A DNA stretch of 64,000 nt from assembly GCF_900110535.1 (NCBI RefSeq), contig NZ_FOJA01000001.1:682001-746000 (forward strand), read 5' to 3'. Shown here piece by piece: positions 5,633-63,885 of this stretch. The notes under the pieces were generated by a model, which worked only from the letters and a program-made list of their open reading frames with translations, did not search any database and was not told where the DNA came from. The position numbers and the translations under genes were made by a program. Source of the stretch: Halobacterium jilantaiense. GTDB lineage: Archaea; Halobacteriota; Halobacteria; Halobacteriales; Halobacteriaceae. How positions within the stretch are numbered: position 1 is the stretch's first letter; each line of letters begins with the position of its first letter.

Positions 5633-7458
5633 CGGTCCTCCATCGGGACGGAGACATCCGATTCCCGGGCTTCGTCGAGTGCGTCCTCGTAGCCGGCGTC
5701 TGCGTGCCGAATCACGCCCATTCCGGGGTCAGTGGTGAACACGCGGCGGGCCTTCTCGGCGGCGAGGTCCGTGCCGTCGAGGACGACGTGGTTGTTCGTG
5801 TGCAGCGAGTTCCCGATGCCGACGCCGCCGCCGTCGTGGACGCTCACGATGTCCGCGCCCGCGGCGGTGTTCAGCAGCGCGTTCAGAATCGGCCAGTCGG
5901 CGACCGCGTCCGTACCGTCCTGCATGGCCTCCGTCTCGCGGTTCGGACTGGCGACGCTGCCGGCGTCGAGGTGGTCCCGCGTGACGACGACGGGAGCCTC
6001 GATTTCGCCGTCCGCGACGAGGTCGTTGATTCGGAGGGCGAAGCGAGCGCGCTCGGTGAGGCTGGCTTCGGCGGTTTCACCGCCTCCGTCACGAGACTCC
6101 CGCGGAGTCTCGCCGTCGTCACTCTGGTACCCCAGCCAGCACACCCGGCTCGGGAGCCCCTGGAACTGCACCTGCTCCTGCGCGAGGTCGATCCAGCGGT
6201 GGAGGTCGTCCTTCTCGGGGAATAGCTCTTTGACGGCCTCGTCGGTGCGGTGGATGTCCTCGGGGTTCCCGGAGAGCGCGACCCACCGGAACGGCCCCTT
6301 CCCGCGGCAGAACAGCGGCCGGATGTACGCCGGGACGAACCCCGGGAAGTCGAAGGGGTCGTGGGTCTCGCCGGCGGTCGTGGTCACGTCACCCCGGTGG
6401 TCGTCGACCTGCCCGCGGATGTTGTTCCCGTACTCGAAGGCGACCGCGCCCTCGTCCTGCATCGCGAGGATGGCGGCGACGTGGCGCGCCATCGTGTCCA
6501 TCGACGCCTCGCGGTACGCGTCGGGGTCGTCGTCGCGCAGTTCGTCGGCCTCCGCGACGGTGTAGCCGCTCGGGTAGTACCCCTCCAGTTCGTCGTGGGC
6601 GCTCGTCTGGTCGGTGACCACGTCCGGCACGAAGCCGCGGTCGAGCATCCCCTCCAGCACGTCCGCGGCGTTCCCGTGGACGCCCACGGAGTAGGGTTCG
6701 CCGGCCTCGGCAGCGTCTTCGGCTCGCCGAATCGCCTCGTCGAGGTCGTCGGTCTTCTCCATGCAGTAGCCCGTCTCGATGCGGCGGTCGATGCGGTCCT
6801 CGTCGACCTCGGCGGCGATGCAGACGCCGTGGTTCATCGTGACCGCGAGCGGCTGCGCGCCCCCCATCCCGCCGAGTCCCGCGGTCACGACGGTCTTCCC
6901 GCGGAGGCCGTCGTTGTCCGGGTAGTGCTCGCGCGCGAGCTCGGCGAGCGTCTCGAAGGTCCCCTGGATGATGCCCTGTGTGCCGATGTACGCCCACGAG
7001 CCCGCCGTCATCTGGCCGTACATGATTTTCCCGTCGGCTTCGAGTTCGTGGAAGTGCTCCCAGTTGTCCCAGTTCCCGACGAGATTCGAGTTCGCGATGA
7101 GGACGCTGGGCGCGCGCTCGTGGGTGTCGAAGACGCCGACCGGCTTCCCGGACTGCACCAGCAGCGTCTCGGTGTCCTCTAGGCTCCGGAGTTCGTCGAG
7201 GATGGCGTCGTAGGCGTCCCACGAACGCGCCGCGCGGCCCGTCCCGCCGTAGACGACGAGGTCCTCGGGCTTCTCGGCGACCTCCGGGTCGAGGTTGTTG
7301 TTCAGCATGCGGAGGGCTGCCTCCTGCCGCCAGCCCTCGCACTCGGTGTCGGTGCCGGTCGGCGCTCCCCGGTAGGACTCCCACTCGGGGGACGGCTCGC
7401 CCACCTCGAAGTCTGCGTCTGGCGCGTCCATGCCCACACGTTCGGCGACGAGTCCCAT
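5629..7458 (-). CDS. hutU: Urocanate hydratase HutU
   Basis: Converts urocanate to 4-imidazolone-5-propionate using tightly bound NAD+. Signatures present include [26 protein letters not shown], the dinucleotide site [45 protein letters not shown] and [11 protein letters not shown]. At ~609 residues it exceeds the usual ~555. The main excess is a ~20-residue acidic/Arg insertion at about 448-470 ([19 protein letters not shown]), whose DNA forms two adjacent hairpins. I chose ATG 7458, about 31 nt from the shared TATA-like element; GTG 7473 and ATG 7431 are alternatives. It is the first gene of the hutUGIH operon. Confidence 0.96.
6070..6112. repeat. Two tandem hairpins inside hutU insertion
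   Basis: At 6070-6084 the arms GGCGGT and ACCGCC flank TTC. At 6092-6112 the 9-bp arms CGAGACTCC and GGAGTCTCG flank CGC. Both are perfect and both have 3-nt loops. Together they encode the peptide insertion (about residues 449-464) that is absent from the typical urocanase core sequence. Confidence 0.65.
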
Positions 7459-7484
7459 AGGCGTACACCCCACCTCACGACGGG

Positions 7485-7494
7485 TTATTTATCA
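7485..7494. promoter_or_regulatory. Shared divergent TATA-like element, hutU / hut-linked regulator
   Basis: TTATTTATCA is the only AT-rich block in the short space between the divergent genes. Its centre is about 25 nt from the regulator GTG (7515) and about 31 nt from the hutU ATG (7458), suitable as box A in both directions. Any regulator bound here would affect both promoters. Confidence 0.55.
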
Positions 7495-7514
7495 GTGAGG
7501 CGGGAAAGGCGTCC

Positions 7515-8141
7515 GTGCAGCAGGCGACGTTCCGGCTGGCCGGCGGTAACGCGTACGCCGCCGCGACGGCCGACACGGACGCGAGAATGCGGCTCTGGTG
7601 CAACGACCACTGCGACCTCCTCGACGTCCGCGGCGAGGGTGCCGACGGCGTGCTCGAAGCCGTCGACGCCGACGTCGGCGTCCGCGAACGCGTCGACGAG
7701 GGGGACACGACGCTGGCGGTCACCGACGCCTGCCTGCGGGCCGAGTCGGACGGCGTCGAGGACACGCTCGCCGCCCACGGCTGCCTCCTCGTGCCGCCGC
7801 TGACGTACGCCGACGGCGAGAAACACCTCCGCGTGCTGGCGCTCGCTCCGGAGTCACTGACCGCGGTGTACCACGACCTCCGCGCCGACTACGACGTCAC
7901 GGTCGCCGACAAGCAGACCGTGAGCGCGCCGCAGTCGGCCGCGCCGGGCGAGTCCGCCCCGGACCTCACCGCTCGGCAGGCGGCCGTGCTTCGCGCGGCC
8001 GTCGAGTCCGGCTACTACGACCGCCCCCGGGAGACGACGACGGCGGCTCTCGCGGAGCGCTTCGGCCTCGCTCGCTCCACGCTCGAAGAACACCTGCGGC
8101 GCGCCGAGGGGAAGGTCGCGCGCGCCGCGCTCCAGCGGTAG
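7515..8141 (+). CDS. Bat-type HTH_10 transcriptional regulator, probable hut regulator
   Basis: A 208-residue protein. The C-terminal ~60 residues form the haloarchaeal HTH_10 (bat-like) DNA-binding domain: LTARQAAVLRAAVESGYYD, then LAERFGLARSTLEEHLRRAE. The N-terminal ~140 residues are the variable sensory part typical of short family members and have no PAS or GAF signature I can name. It is divergent from hutU and shares its 40-nt promoter region, so control of histidine utilisation is the likely role, by position. The GTG start is set by the upstream TATA-like box. Confidence 0.88.
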   Translation: MQQATFRLAGGNAYAAATADTDARMRLWCNDHCDLLDVRGEGADGVLEAVDADVGVRERVDEGDTTLAVTDACLRAESDGVEDTLAAHGCLLVPPLTYADGEKHLRVLALAPESLTAVYHDLRADYDVTVADKQTVSAPQSAAPGESAPDLTARQAAVLRAAVESGYYDRPRETTTAALAERFGLARSTLEEHLRRAEGKVARAALQR

Positions 8142-8153
8142 CGCAACGCTTCT

Positions 8154-8172
8154 GTCTCCGGCCGCCGGAGAC
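8154..8172. repeat. Intergenic hairpin (8-bp stem, 3-nt loop)
   Basis: Arms GTCTCCGG and CCGGAGAC flank CCG. It sits 13 nt after the regulator stop codon and directly abuts the GTG of the next gene. It could act as a weak terminator, as an operator over the start site, or belong to the short-hairpin class also seen in hutH and hutU. Confidence 0.55.
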
Positions 8173-8607
8173 GTGGACGTGCGCAGATTCGTCGCCGCAG
8201 TCGTCGCGGGCGTACTCGTTCAGGCGGCAGTGCTGGCGACGTTCCGGGAACTCCCCCCGCGCCTCCCGCCCACGTCGGTCACGGCGTTCCGCGTGTTCTT
8301 CGTCGGCGTCCTCGGCGGGTACGTCGCGGCCCAGTTCGCGGTCCGCCGGCCCCGGGCCGCAGCCATCGCGGCCGGAGTGAGCGTGGGCGTCGGCGTCGGC
8401 GCGGCGTTCTGGTGGGCGGTGCTGTACGGCGACACCGTCGGCGTCGTCCGCCACCTCCACTACGCGCTGGCGACGGCCGGCGTCCCCGGTCGCCTGATTC
8501 GGGACGTCCCGCGGCTCGTGGTCGCGGCCGCGGCGCTGGTGGTCGCGGCGGCGTTCGCGTTCGGCGGCTCGCTCGGCGGGTGGACGGCGACCGCCGGTCC
8601 GGACTGA
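8173..8607 (+). CDS. Hypothetical membrane protein
   Basis: A 144-residue protein with four predicted transmembrane helices (about residues 4-20, 37-55, 60-80 and 110-135), rich in Ala and Val. No family motif is recognised. The GTG start directly follows an intergenic hairpin; the frame upstream is blocked by the regulator gene end. It may be co-transcribed with the preceding regulator, since the gap is only 31 nt. Confidence 0.7.
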   Translation: MDVRRFVAAVVAGVLVQAAVLATFRELPPRLPPTSVTAFRVFFVGVLGGYVAAQFAVRRPRAAAIAAGVSVGVGVGAAFWWAVLYGDTVGVVRHLHYALATAGVPGRLIRDVPRLVVAAAALVVAAAFAFGGSLGGWTATAGPD

Positions 8608-59575: not shown

Positions 59576-59724
59576 GCGAGAGTGGTCGGCGGCCGGTGTC
59601 ATAGTCGTTGGCTAGCCGGAACCACGGCGTCGCGGCCGACCGAAGCGCGGCTCGCAGCCCGGCGCGGACCAAGTCACAGCGAAGCGTCGCCACGGTTAAC
59701 AGGCGAGGCACGCACGGTGGCGAC

Positions 59725-60210
59725 GTGTCCCCGAGAATCAACATCGGCAGCGGCGACGGCAACTCCTCCCGCGGCGTCCTCGTGTTCCTCGTCATCAGCG
59801 TCGCAATCGCCGGGTACGGCGGCTACGACTACCTCCAGCAGTCGGAGGCCGTCCGGAACGCCGTCGAGGTCGACGCGACCGTCGTCGAGACCGGCGTCGA
59901 CACCGAGTCGGGCCGACGCGGGCGCGTCGACTACCGCCCGACGGCGACCTTCGAGTATAGCCACGACGGCGAGACGTACACCGGGAACTCGGTGTTCCCG
60001 GGGTCGGTGACGCCGACCTACGACACCGAGTCGGCGGCACGCGACGTAGTCGCCGACTACGAGCCGGGCGATACAGTGACGGCGTACGTCGACCCCGCGA
60101 GCCCCGGCAGCGCCTTCCTGAAGAACCAGCAGACGGACACCCCGGTGAAGCTCGCCGCAATCGGGCTGGTGGGCGTCCTCCTGACTGCTATCAAGTACGT
60201 CCGGTCGTGA
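59725..60210 (+). CDS. DUF3592 domain membrane protein
   Basis: A 161-residue protein with an N-terminal helix (VLVFLVISVAIAGYGGYDYL), an extracytoplasmic DUF3592-type domain (VDATVVETGVDTESGRRGRVDYRPTATFEYSHDGETYTGNSVFPG, then YEPGDTVTAYVDPASPGSAFL) and a C-terminal helix. GTG 59725 is chosen; further upstream codons lack coding character. The GGTTAACAGG box lies ~30 nt upstream. Function unknown. Confidence 0.78.
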   Translation: MSPRINIGSGDGNSSRGVLVFLVISVAIAGYGGYDYLQQSEAVRNAVEVDATVVETGVDTESGRRGRVDYRPTATFEYSHDGETYTGNSVFPGSVTPTYDTESAARDVVADYEPGDTVTAYVDPASPGSAFLKNQQTDTPVKLAAIGLVGVLLTAIKYVRS

Positions 60211-60243: not shown

Positions 60244-61284
60244 TCAGTCCTCGCCGCCGCCGGCGAACCACCGGAGGCCGGCGTAGGAGACCGCAGCGGC
60301 CGCGAGCGTCGCGGCGAGCGTGAGCCACGTCAGCGTCGTGGCGCTGTCGACGGCCAGCCGCGCGACGAGGTTCTGCGGGCTCTGCGGGAGCAGGCTGGCA
60401 GCGCCGAACGCCCCGAGCGCGACGAACGAGTACAGTAGCTGTGCCTCCCGACGCGCGCCGATTCGGAGCGCGAGCGCGGCACCCCCGGCGACCAGCACGG
60501 CCGCGACGCCCGTTACGAGCGCGAGCACCGCCAGTGGGTTCGCGATGCTCGTCCCGTTGTACGACAGCAGCGCGAGCCAGAGCGCGACCTGCGCGGGAGC
60601 CAGCCCGACGAGCGCGATGGCTTTCCCGTCGACCACGTCCCGTAGCGACAGCGGCGCGACACGGAGCAGTTCGAGGGTGCCGCGTTCGGCCTCCTCGGCG
60701 AGCGAGTCAGCCATCACGCTGCCGGAGATGAACGCCGGCAGGAACGCCAGCAGCGGCAGCAGGACGGTGTACGTGAACGAGAAGTAGGGGTTCGAGCGGT
60801 CCTCGGGCGGCAGGTCGAGGGGTTGGCGGTCGAGGCGCTGGGCGAAGGTCGTCCGCTGCTCGCGTTCGAGCGCGGACAGCGCGCTCTTCAGCTCCGAGAC
60901 GACGAGCGTCGTGCGGAACGAGCCCTCCGGCGCTGTGGCTTCGACGAGGATGCGGCCGCCGGGTTGTGTCGTAGCGTGCAACAGCGCGTCGACATCGCCG
61001 CGCTGGAACGCCGAGCCGGCCCGAGACTGCGACTGGAACGGGACGACGCGGACGCCGCCGTCGGCGACCGTGGCGGCGATATCGCCGCTGGCGTTCCCGG
61101 TGACGCCGACGTCGACCTCGAGAGCGCCCTCCGTGGAGCCGGGGTCGTACAGCGAGACGAGGCCGACGACGAGGAACGACGAGAACCCCGCGATGAACAG
61201 CTGGATGACGAGCGCGAGCACGATGGTCTTCTCGGAGCGCAGCGACCCGAGCGTGCGGCGCGCGAGGACGATGCGGCTACCCAA
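60244..61284 (-). CDS. ABC-2 type transporter permease
   Basis: A 346-residue permease: an N-terminal helix (LALVIQLFIAGFSSFLVVGL), a large extracytoplasmic domain (SLYDPGSTEGALEVDVGVTG, then VVPFQSQSRAGSAFQRGDVD), and a C-terminal set of five to six helices (FLPAFISGSVMADSLAEEAERGTLELLRVAPLS is the ABC-2/NatB hallmark). The start is a TTG at 61284 overlapping the end of the preceding permease gene by 8 nt; the overlap favours coupled translation. It is the second permease of an ATPase-permease-permease operon. Confidence 0.88.
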   Translation of the reverse strand: MGSRIVLARRTLGSLRSEKTIVLALVIQLFIAGFSSFLVVGLVSLYDPGSTEGALEVDVGVTGNASGDIAATVADGGVRVVPFQSQSRAGSAFQRGDVDALLHATTQPGGRILVEATAPEGSFRTTLVVSELKSALSALEREQRTTFAQRLDRQPLDLPPEDRSNPYFSFTYTVLLPLLAFLPAFISGSVMADSLAEEAERGTLELLRVAPLSLRDVVDGKAIALVGLAPAQVALWLALLSYNGTSIANPLAVLALVTGVAAVLVAGGAALALRIGARREAQLLYSFVALGAFGAASLLPQSPQNLVARLAVDSATTLTWLTLAATLAAAAVSYAGLRWFAGGGED

Positions 61285-63025
61285 GGGAGACCACCACCAC
61301 TGCGAGGTTGTACGCGACGTGCAACACGATTGCGAGCGCGAGCGTGCCGAGGTACGCGAGCCGCGACCGGGCCGCGCCGACGGCGGAGACGGCCGCGGTC
61401 ACGACGTGTAACGCCAGCGGCGCGACGAGCAACAGCCCCGGCGACGCGCCGAGCAACTCGGGTGAGAACGCCGCCTGTGCCACGTCTAGTTCGGGGAGTC
61501 CGACGAGCTGGGTGACCAGCAGGAGCTTCTCCGCGACGAAGAAGCCGACCCCGGAGGCAGCGCCGACGACCAGCGCGTTCCGGAACGACCGGTCGTACTG
61601 GCCGCGCTCGAACCCGGCGAACACGTGGACGCTCTTGGCGATCTCCTCGATGACGGCGACGACGCCCAGCAGCAGCGGGACCGAGATGGAGACCGGGGCG
61701 ACGAACAGCACGGCGACGGCGAACAGTTCGCCGACGAAGACAAACGGCAGGAACAGCGCCGTCCAGAGGCCGGCCCGCCACCGGCTGGTGAGCGGCGCGG
61801 CGAGCGCGTCCAGGAACTTCGAGGGAATCGGGAGCTGCGTGAACATGTCCTCCTCGCGGTAGACGCCCGTACCGAGGCCGAAGAGGACGAACGCGGCGAG
61901 TCCCGGCGGCACTGTCGAGAGCACGAACTGGCCGGCGGTCACGCCGTCGCCCGTGATGGAGTCGACGACGACGGTTAGCGGCGAGATGGCGGCGATGGGG
62001 TGGACCTCCGCGAACACTGCGGGCACGAAGGCGTACGCCGTGAGCGCGACACTGACGGTGACGGTGACGAACGTGAGTTCCTTGTACGACCGGGCGAGCA
62101 TCGCGCCGAAGAACGTCGCCGCGAGGAACAGCGCGGCCAGCGGCGTGATGGCGAGCACGGAGAGCGCACCGGCACCCGTCGCGACCGCGATGACGGAGAT
62201 GAGCGCGAGCGCGCCGAGGAGGTACGGCAGCGTCTTCCCGGCGACGATGTCTCCGCGGGAGATGGGCGCGACGAGCATCGGTTCGCCCCGGCGGTTGATG
62301 CGTTCGGCGAGCACGCTGGACCCGTAGGCCTGAATCACGATGTTCAGCGGCAGCAGGAACGCGAACGCGAACACGAGCGACTGCAGCGGGAACGGCGGCG
62401 AAATCGACGAGGGCGTGCCGGACTGAGCCTGCCCGAGTAGGCCGCTCAGCCCGCCGCCGGTCGTCGGCACGTCGCCGCCACCGGTGGCCGCGTCGCCGCC
62501 GGACTGGACGCCGTCTCCACCCGTTCCGCCGTCGCCACCGGCGTCCGCGTCGCCGTCGGTCTGCTGGCCGTCGTCTGCGGGCTGGCCCGTGACCGAGATG
62601 GACTGCGGGAGGTAGGTCAGAGAGACGACGACCGGGAACGCGGCGGCCTGGTCGGGCTCCTGGCGCATCAGGAAGTCGTTGTACGACACTGTCGCCGACC
62701 GCAGCGTCGAGAGTGCGGCCCTGCCTTTCGGCGTGTCCCGGTAGGTGAGACTGGTCTCGGTGATGACCACGTCGGCCTCGGCAGTCGGGTCGACGGCCGC
62801 GAGCTGGGCGTCGCTGGCGACGACGTCGGCGTACTGGCTGTCGTCGGAGACGCCGACCCGGTAGATGCCTTCGCCGGGCGTCGGCCCCATCGTGACGAGC
62901 GCGGGGACGATGGCGGCGAGCGCGAGCAACACGACGACGAACGCGACCGCGGTCTCGCGGTCGATGTCGCCGGCGCTCCGGGTGGTCTCCCAGCGCGCGA
63001 TGCGGGCGACGTTGCGCGCTTTCAT
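61277..63025 (-). CDS. ABC-2 type permease fused to a PrsW-like intramembrane protease domain
   Basis: A 582-residue protein. Residues 1-400 are an ABC-2 permease: N-terminal helix, extracytoplasmic domain with an acidic Gly/Asp-rich linker (150-195), and helices with GSSVLAERINRRGEPMLVAPIS and AGKTLPYLLGALALI. Residues ~410-582 carry the PrsW-type motifs EE at 460-461 (VIEEIAKSVHVF), GVGFFVAEK (Glu499), LHVVTAAV (His540) and VLHVAYN (His569, Asn573). PrsW proteins are membrane proteases. Stop overlaps the next permease; ATG 63025 overlaps the ATPase stop (ATGA). A transporter that also processes a membrane or exported peptide is suggested. Confidence 0.88.
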   Translation of the reverse strand: MKARNVARIARWETTRSAGDIDRETAVAFVVVLLALAAIVPALVTMGPTPGEGIYRVGVSDDSQYADVVASDAQLAAVDPTAEADVVITETSLTYRDTPKGRAALSTLRSATVSYNDFLMRQEPDQAAAFPVVVSLTYLPQSISVTGQPADDGQQTDGDADAGGDGGTGGDGVQSGGDAATGGGDVPTTGGGLSGLLGQAQSGTPSSISPPFPLQSLVFAFAFLLPLNIVIQAYGSSVLAERINRRGEPMLVAPISRGDIVAGKTLPYLLGALALISVIAVATGAGALSVLAITPLAALFLAATFFGAMLARSYKELTFVTVTVSVALTAYAFVPAVFAEVHPIAAISPLTVVVDSITGDGVTAGQFVLSTVPPGLAAFVLFGLGTGVYREEDMFTQLPIPSKFLDALAAPLTSRWRAGLWTALFLPFVFVGELFAVAVLFVAPVSISVPLLLGVVAVIEEIAKSVHVFAGFERGQYDRSFRNALVVGAASGVGFFVAEKLLLVTQLVGLPELDVAQAAFSPELLGASPGLLLVAPLALHVVTAAVSAVGAARSRLAYLGTLALAIVLHVAYNLAVVVVSLG

Positions 63026-63885
63026 GTTCCGGTCACGTCGAGGAAGACGTCTTCGAGGGTGGACTCGTCGGTGCGGATGTCGACGACCTCGCCGCCGCCG
63101 TCGCTCGCTTCCGACCGCAGCGCCTCCACGTCGTCCATCGACTCGACCTCGGTGACGTGGCGGTCGCCCGCGGGCTCCGAGTCGGCCAGCGGCACGTCGG
63201 TGAACACGCGGTAGGACACCTCGCCGTGTTCCTCACGGATGTCGGCGAGCGTCCCCGTGGCGGCCAGTTCGCCGTCCCGCATGATGGCGACGCGGTCGCA
63301 GACGCTCTCGACGTGGTGGAGGTCGTGGGCGCTGAACACGATGGTCTTCCCGTCGTCGGCGAGCTCTCGCGTGAACTCCACGACGGTGTTCGTCGTCAGC
63401 GGGTCGAGGCCGCTCGCGGGCTCGTCGTAGACCAGCACGTCCGGGTCGTTCACGAGCGAGCGCGCGATGGCGACCTTGCGCTTCATGCCCTTCGAGAAGT
63501 CCCCGACCGGGCGGTCGCGGGCGTCGAGGTCGAGGCGGTCGAGCGCGGCCTCGATGCGCTCGTTCGCGGCCTCCCGGTCGACGTCGTAGAGGTCCGCGAA
63601 GAATCGCAGGTAGCCCCGGGGACTCATCTCGTCGTACAGCGGCGATTCCTCCGGGAGGAAGCCCAGCGAGCGCCGCATCTCAGTCTCGCCGGCGTCGAAG
63701 CCGTTGACCGTGACGTCGCCGGCCGACGGCTCGACGAGGCCACAGAGCATCTTCAGCGTGGATGTCTTCCCGGCCCCGTTCGGCCCGACGAGCCCGAACA
63801 CCTCCCCGGCGTCGACCTCGAACGAGACGCCGTCGACGGCGGTGACGTCCCCGTATCGTTTCTCCAGGCCCCTGACCGAAATCAT
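63022..63885 (-). CDS. ABC transporter ATP-binding protein
   Basis: A 287-residue ATPase: Walker A LVGPNGAGKTSTLKML, Q-loop FLPEESPLYDEMSPRGYLRF, signature FSKGMKRKVAIARSLVNDPD, Walker B VLVYDEPASGLDPL and switch His IVFSAHDLHHVES. It energises the two permeases encoded downstream, which overlap it by 4 nt (ATGA). The NatA-like architecture fits sodium/drug/peptide exporters; substrate unknown. First gene of the three-gene operon. Confidence 0.95.
   Translation of the reverse strand: MISVRGLEKRYGDVTAVDGVSFEVDAGEVFGLVGPNGAGKTSTLKMLCGLVEPSAGDVTVNGFDAGETEMRRSLGFLPEESPLYDEMSPRGYLRFFADLYDVDREAANERIEAALDRLDLDARDRPVGDFSKGMKRKVAIARSLVNDPDVLVYDEPASGLDPLTTNTVVEFTRELADDGKTIVFSAHDLHHVESVCDRVAIMRDGELAATGTLADIREEHGEVSYRVFTDVPLADSEPAGDRHVTEVESMDDVEALRSEASDGGGEVVDIRTDESTLEDVFLDVTGT

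Follow-up and report, generated by a model that had tools for sequence, protein, structure and literature searches.

The 64,000-nucleotide window, that is, the whole stretch of Halobacterium jilantaiense DNA analysed here, harbors an overlapping three-gene operon on the minus strand, in the order ABC ATPase, fusion protein, and second permease. The fusion ORF is the middle gene (61277-63025, ATG start, 582 aa) and overlaps both neighbours, namely the ATPase stop at its 5' end and the start of the second-permease gene at its 3' end. The ATPase/permease/permease operon proposed in the initial annotation is borne out. The features are as follows.

63022-63885, minus strand: ABC ATPase (NatA/DrrA-type), operon gene 1 (PF00005, 105.7 bits)
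61277-63025, minus strand: ABC-2 permease/predicted PrsW intramembrane protease fusion, 582 aa (profiles, conservation, and models)
61800-63025, minus strand: ABC-2 permease half, residues 1-408 (PF12679, 27.7 bits; NosY 7znq, Z 16.5)
61280-61813, minus strand: predicted PrsW protease domain, residues 405-582, five core helices (PF13367, 38.6-40.7 bits; pLDDT 92.3)
60244-61284, minus strand: second ABC-2 permease, 346 aa, without a protease domain (PF12698, 53 bits)

Residues ~1-400 of the fusion are predicted to adopt an ABC-2 (NosY-like) permease fold. PF12679 (ABC2_membrane_2) matches the N-terminal 408 residues alone just above its cut-off (27.7 vs 27.2 bits), and the modelled permease half superposes on NosY 7znq with a VIA-align Z of 16.5 over 209 residues (model residues 4-395). 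Between TM1 and TM2-6 lies an insertion (about 47-213) made up of an extracytoplasmic domain, large and acidic, with its low-complexity linker. The full-length fusion model has a pLDDT of 83.6, with low-confidence residues at 140-157 and 174-210. The ABC-2 permease fold and the adjacent PF00005 ATPase place the system among the ABC-2 (type V) exporters. The closest named relative of the fusion protein belongs to Halobacterium sp. TGN-42-S1 (88-91% identity), and the H. salinarum protein is 77-78% identical. A DUF3592 membrane protein is encoded on the opposite strand adjoining the operon (59608-60210, plus strand); among the fetched named loci, such a gene lies beside the trio in the nearest relative (L025) only.

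The PrsW-type domain

Residues ~405-582 are predicted, from profiles and modelling, to be a PrsW-type intramembrane protease domain. The last 180 residues alone score 38.6-39.2 bits against PF13367 (cut-off 23.5), and a search of the genome with this profile retrieves the fusion at 40.7 bits (E 2.8e-10). In hhalign, the domain aligns with a stand-alone haloarchaeal PrsW with a probability of 96.7% (E 3.3e-10) and all four motifs in register, whereas the probability against CPBP is 2.8%. The fusion is also not among the matches of PF02517 (CPBP) in the source genome; together, these two results rule out a CPBP identity. PrsW, CPBP/Rce1, and APH-1 constitute one superfamily (PMC6588880, PMC4602095). 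The initial assignment to a "different protease family" from that of the bacterial NatB/CPBP fusion therefore holds at the Pfam level but is misleading above it.

The structure prediction suggested in the initial annotation yields a protease-domain model with a mean pLDDT of 92.3. Its best VIA-align match is gamma-secretase APH-1 (Z 11.0, rmsd 4.4 over 161 residues), which scores about 2 Z above unrelated MlaE rows. The BOS complex of the multipass translocon supplies a further match, one of its subunits scoring Z 9.7-9.9, and Rce1 (4cad) scores Z 4.5. The model thus has the fold of the PrsW/CPBP/APH-1 superfamily, the match being graded moderate because Foldseek with the same model returned nothing at E<=0.001. 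Run against PDB sequences, the protease profile gave no match.

The motifs of the fusion are E460-E461-xx-K464, G492-x-G-F495-xxx-E499-K500, H540-V-V-T543, and H569-xxx-N573. Three of the initially listed motifs (EExxK, GxGFxxxEK, and HxxxN) are present as described, while the third reads HxxT rather than HxxxT. The elements that characterize PrsW, namely EExxK, a histidine in the penultimate helix, and HxxxN/D in the last helix (roles as given in PMC4602095), are all found and are invariant or nearly so. Across 89 orthologues, E460, E461, and K464 do not vary; E499, H540, and H569 are retained in all 88 intact orthologues, the sole exception being one frame-broken contig end. Position 573 is asparagine in 85 of the 89 and aspartate in the remainder. 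In all 19 distant orthologues, with identity down to about 30%, the EE pair, K, E, and both histidines are kept. Loss of catalytic residues in orthologues, which the initial annotation had named as grounds for abandoning the assignment, was therefore not observed in any of the 88 intact or 19 distant sequences. Because of this invariance, the motif is more than a chance occurrence, an explanation that the profile scores likewise rule out. The E499-K500 pair is characteristic of the fused forms; solo haloarchaeal PrsW has E-N instead.

The model helices and loop charges indicate 11 transmembrane helices with the N-terminus inside and the C-terminus outside. The predicted cytosolic loops and the N-terminus carry 2.0-4.5 K+R per sequence and the outer membrane loops 0-0.7; the extracytoplasmic domain is strongly acidic. 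In this predicted topology, the outer helix ends are 11 to 17 residues away from E460/461, E499, H540, and H569, which would put the catalytic residues at similar depth; the clustering that the initial annotation asked for was probed indirectly, by this depth and by the fold match. Taken together, the sequence, its conservation, and the models show an intact, invariant PrsW active site at mid-membrane, and the profiles, hhalign, and models agree with the initial description of an ABC-2 permease fused to a PrsW protease.

The domain is easily overlooked. An hmmscan of the uncut 582-aa protein reports neither PF12679 nor PF13367, and in whole-protein scans PF13367 is reported in only 5 of 62 full-length orthologues; standard annotation therefore tends to miss it. 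The RefSeq name of one relative is just "ABC transporter permease subunit". That HMMER scans of uncut proteins drop domain matches that are clear on the halves is a filter effect, through which many fused intramembrane proteases probably escape annotation pipelines.

Haloarchaea also have stand-alone PrsW proteins. The source genome encodes a separate one (G000:C1:1488162-1488773), and PF13367 is found above cut-off in 39 of 39 haloarchaeal genomes searched, nearly always including a solo PrsW. In H. salinarum, translational up-regulation has been reported for the PrsW family protein VNG2625C (PMC7394353), which may be either the solo PrsW or the fusion. Stand-alone PrsW (PF13367, MEROPS M82; B. 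subtilis and haloarchaeal solo forms) shares with the archaeal domain its fold and the EExxK, GFxxxE, H, and HxxxN/D motifs. The archaeal domain differs in being fused to a permease, in having EK where the haloarchaeal solo form has EN, and in its helix count, which is below the eight that most PrsW are reported to have (PMC3482391).

Distribution and linkage of the trio

The phylogenetic spread, another point raised initially, was surveyed with a full-length fusion profile, the listed matches to which nearly all span from about residue 3 to the profile end. In the class, 214 of 292 genomes (56 of 77 genera) have a match; in the phylum Halobacteriota, 206 of 393 genomes do (83 of 136 genera). 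These counts include a few weak matches (E above about 1e-10), for example the solo PrsW-like L132, that probably represent other proteins. The fusion is found in Methanoculleus, other Methanomicrobiales, and ANME-2c, and among haloarchaea also in H. salinarum DSM 3754 and several species of Haloferax. All 80 loci listed in an all-GTDB scan for close-range patterns are haloarchaeal or methanogen/ANME records, a few of them labelled only Euryarchaeota or uncultured archaeon. A plasmid search for the fusion returned a single haloarchaeal megaplasmid. Since it is absent from a minority of haloarchaea and from many other genomes of the phylum, the fusion is not a general necessity. Among the listed matches, the fusion is nearly always one frame of ~600 aa, which rules out mis-joined ORFs as its source.

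The ATPase and the second permease adjoin the fusion in almost every haloarchaeal locus. In methanogens, the ATPase is usually divergently transcribed, yet it is still adjacent to the fusion. Of the family's 26 genomes, 17 have both the fusion and the second permease and the other 9 have neither. This adjacency and joint presence or absence mark protease, permeases, and ATPase as a single unit, which tends to disappear in its entirety. Sequence, conservation, and structure prediction establish that the linkage of protease, permease, and ATPase is ancient and tightly kept.

Two loci depart from this arrangement. In Halarchaeum acidiphilum (G003:C87; L030, about 7272-8295), the second permease is split over frames while the fusion and ATPase are intact, reflecting either a sequencing error or early decay. 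In L148 (G316), the fusion is accompanied by a divergent ATPase and no second permease is recognised beside it; a homodimer or a very diverged partner permease is possible.

Beyond the trio, the next commonest neighbour is an aldo/keto reductase (27 of 81 loci). The initial annotation had suggested looking for small peptide genes beside orthologues; no peptide or regulator gene is conserved next to the trio in 81 haloarchaeal-centred and 25 mostly methanogen loci, in a screen of ORFs from about 35-40 aa upwards. For this reason a dedicated peptide-maturation cluster is not supported, and the trio may have either a general peptide-clearing or exporting role or a regulatory one.

Possible functions and comparison with known systems

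The reading we prefer, to which we assign a probability of about 0.4, is that of a heterodimeric ABC-2 exporter with an intramembrane protease built into one permease subunit, cutting and exporting membrane-embedded peptides or helices. The PrsW domain would cut membrane-embedded substrates, which could be remnants of signal peptides or lipoprotein leaders or helices belonging to small membrane proteins. Its products would then be extracted and exported by the ATP-driven permease pair. The lack of a dedicated peptide gene favors such a general substrate pool. Archaeosortase (ArtA), a possible source of membrane remnants, is present in all 321 good-quality genomes; because of this ubiquity, its presence or absence says nothing on a link with the fusion.

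By analogy, cutting and clearing might be performed here by a single machine, a job that in Firmicutes is split between Eep/RasP and EcsAB/PptAB. In the Firmicutes systems, ABC exporter and intramembrane protease are functionally coupled (PMC7157817, PMC2996298). In Staphylococcus aureus, Eep and EcsAB are both required to make and export lipoprotein-leader peptides (PMC7157817); in B. subtilis, intramembrane proteolysis is inhibited once Ecs is lost, and a "cleaning function" for the membrane has been proposed (PMC2996298). Their components are encoded by separate genes and the protease is of the S2P type, such that they offer a working analogy without family relation. In the TMcin RiPP system, the intramembrane protease TmcP and the ABC exporter TmcBC likewise act on a transmembrane peptide, which they process and extract (PMC13252029). 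TmcP and TmcBC are, however, separate proteins, the protease is again S2P-type, and the precursor gene is dedicated and lies in the cluster. PCAT bacteriocin exporters have a cytosolic C39 cysteine protease, belong to another ABC exporter type, and have no known homology with the archaeal fusion. PCATs, as cited in PMC13252029, carry protease and transporter in one chain, with cutting coupled to export.

The nearest architectural counterpart is NF041647 (ABC_perm_CPBP), likewise an ABC-2 permease with a C-terminal intramembrane protease of the same superfamily. The protease is CPBP in NF041647 and PrsW in the archaeal fusion, and the archaeal trio has a second, unfused permease that resembles the NF041647 permease half. 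The source-genome fusion protein does not match NF041647 (full-length cut-off 435 bits), one of 62 orthologues matches weakly (E 0.0022), and the profile finds nothing above cut-off over 59 genomes. The two fusions may be independent. A haloarchaeal locus (L107; G066:C1:1389725-1390990) matches the permease half of NF041647 at 113 bits, with no matched CPBP half and an internal TAG. The superfamily of PrsW, CPBP, and APH-1 and the NCBI-curated ABC-permease/CPBP fusion are thus already known; no paper on an archaeal PrsW-permease fusion was found in the open-access literature.

Against cutting and export stands the fact that the precedent proteases (Eep, RasP, and TmcP) are S2P-type and not PrsW. 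Furthermore, B. subtilis PrsW, the one member of known function, acts in signalling by cleaving the anti-sigma factor RsiW. A signalling role is the main rival: the exporter substrate or transport state would switch the PrsW domain, which would then cut a membrane-anchored regulator encoded elsewhere in the genome, in a site-1-type cleavage like that of RsiW. Archaea are not known to have sigma/anti-sigma pairs of the RsiW type, which weakens the parallel. PrsW is often fused to sensory domains (PilZ, cNMP-binding, and FHA; PMC3482391), in keeping with such a switch. A helix-turn-helix gene also adjoins the operon in the source genome (L105, 4944-5711), yet this family occurs in only 8 of 81 loci and the various genera have no conserved regulator gene next to the trio, leaving a sensor protease doubtful.

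The domain could instead serve maturation or quality control, trimming the exporter, the partner permease, or a single dedicated export product, either a membrane protein or one anchored by a lipid, in an Rce1-like or sorting-type reaction, with a non-peptide transport substrate. The large extracytoplasmic domains of the heterodimeric exporter would suit this role, as would the processing or sorting of surface proteins by CPBP relatives described in the work on Myxosortase (PMC11980579). Such a function appears unlikely, in that no cargo gene is conserved near the trio and self-trimming would not require phylum-wide retention of the fusion. APH-1, the best structural match, acts as a scaffold in gamma-secretase, so the PrsW domain might be a structural remnant that is no longer a protease and merely stabilises the permease dimer. 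The invariance of EE, K, E, H, and H in both close and distant orthologues fits an active site and not a scaffold, and makes this alternative highly improbable.

Little is understood of how cells rid themselves of transmembrane stubs after intramembrane proteolysis or signal-peptide cutting, and archaea have hardly been studied in this respect. If cutting and export are indeed combined in the trio, it may represent a self-contained machine for "cut and extrude", driven by ATP and with mechanical coupling of proteolysis to product export, ancestral in a large part of Halobacteriota and overlooked as an ordinary permease; we advance this fuller picture tentatively, as something short of an even chance. 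The fusion also reveals a whole family of putative proteases concealed under the name "ABC transporter permease". With its active site invariant from methanogens to haloarchaea, it provides a defined, genetically tractable object (in Haloferax and Halobacterium) for the question of whether cutting and export are coupled.
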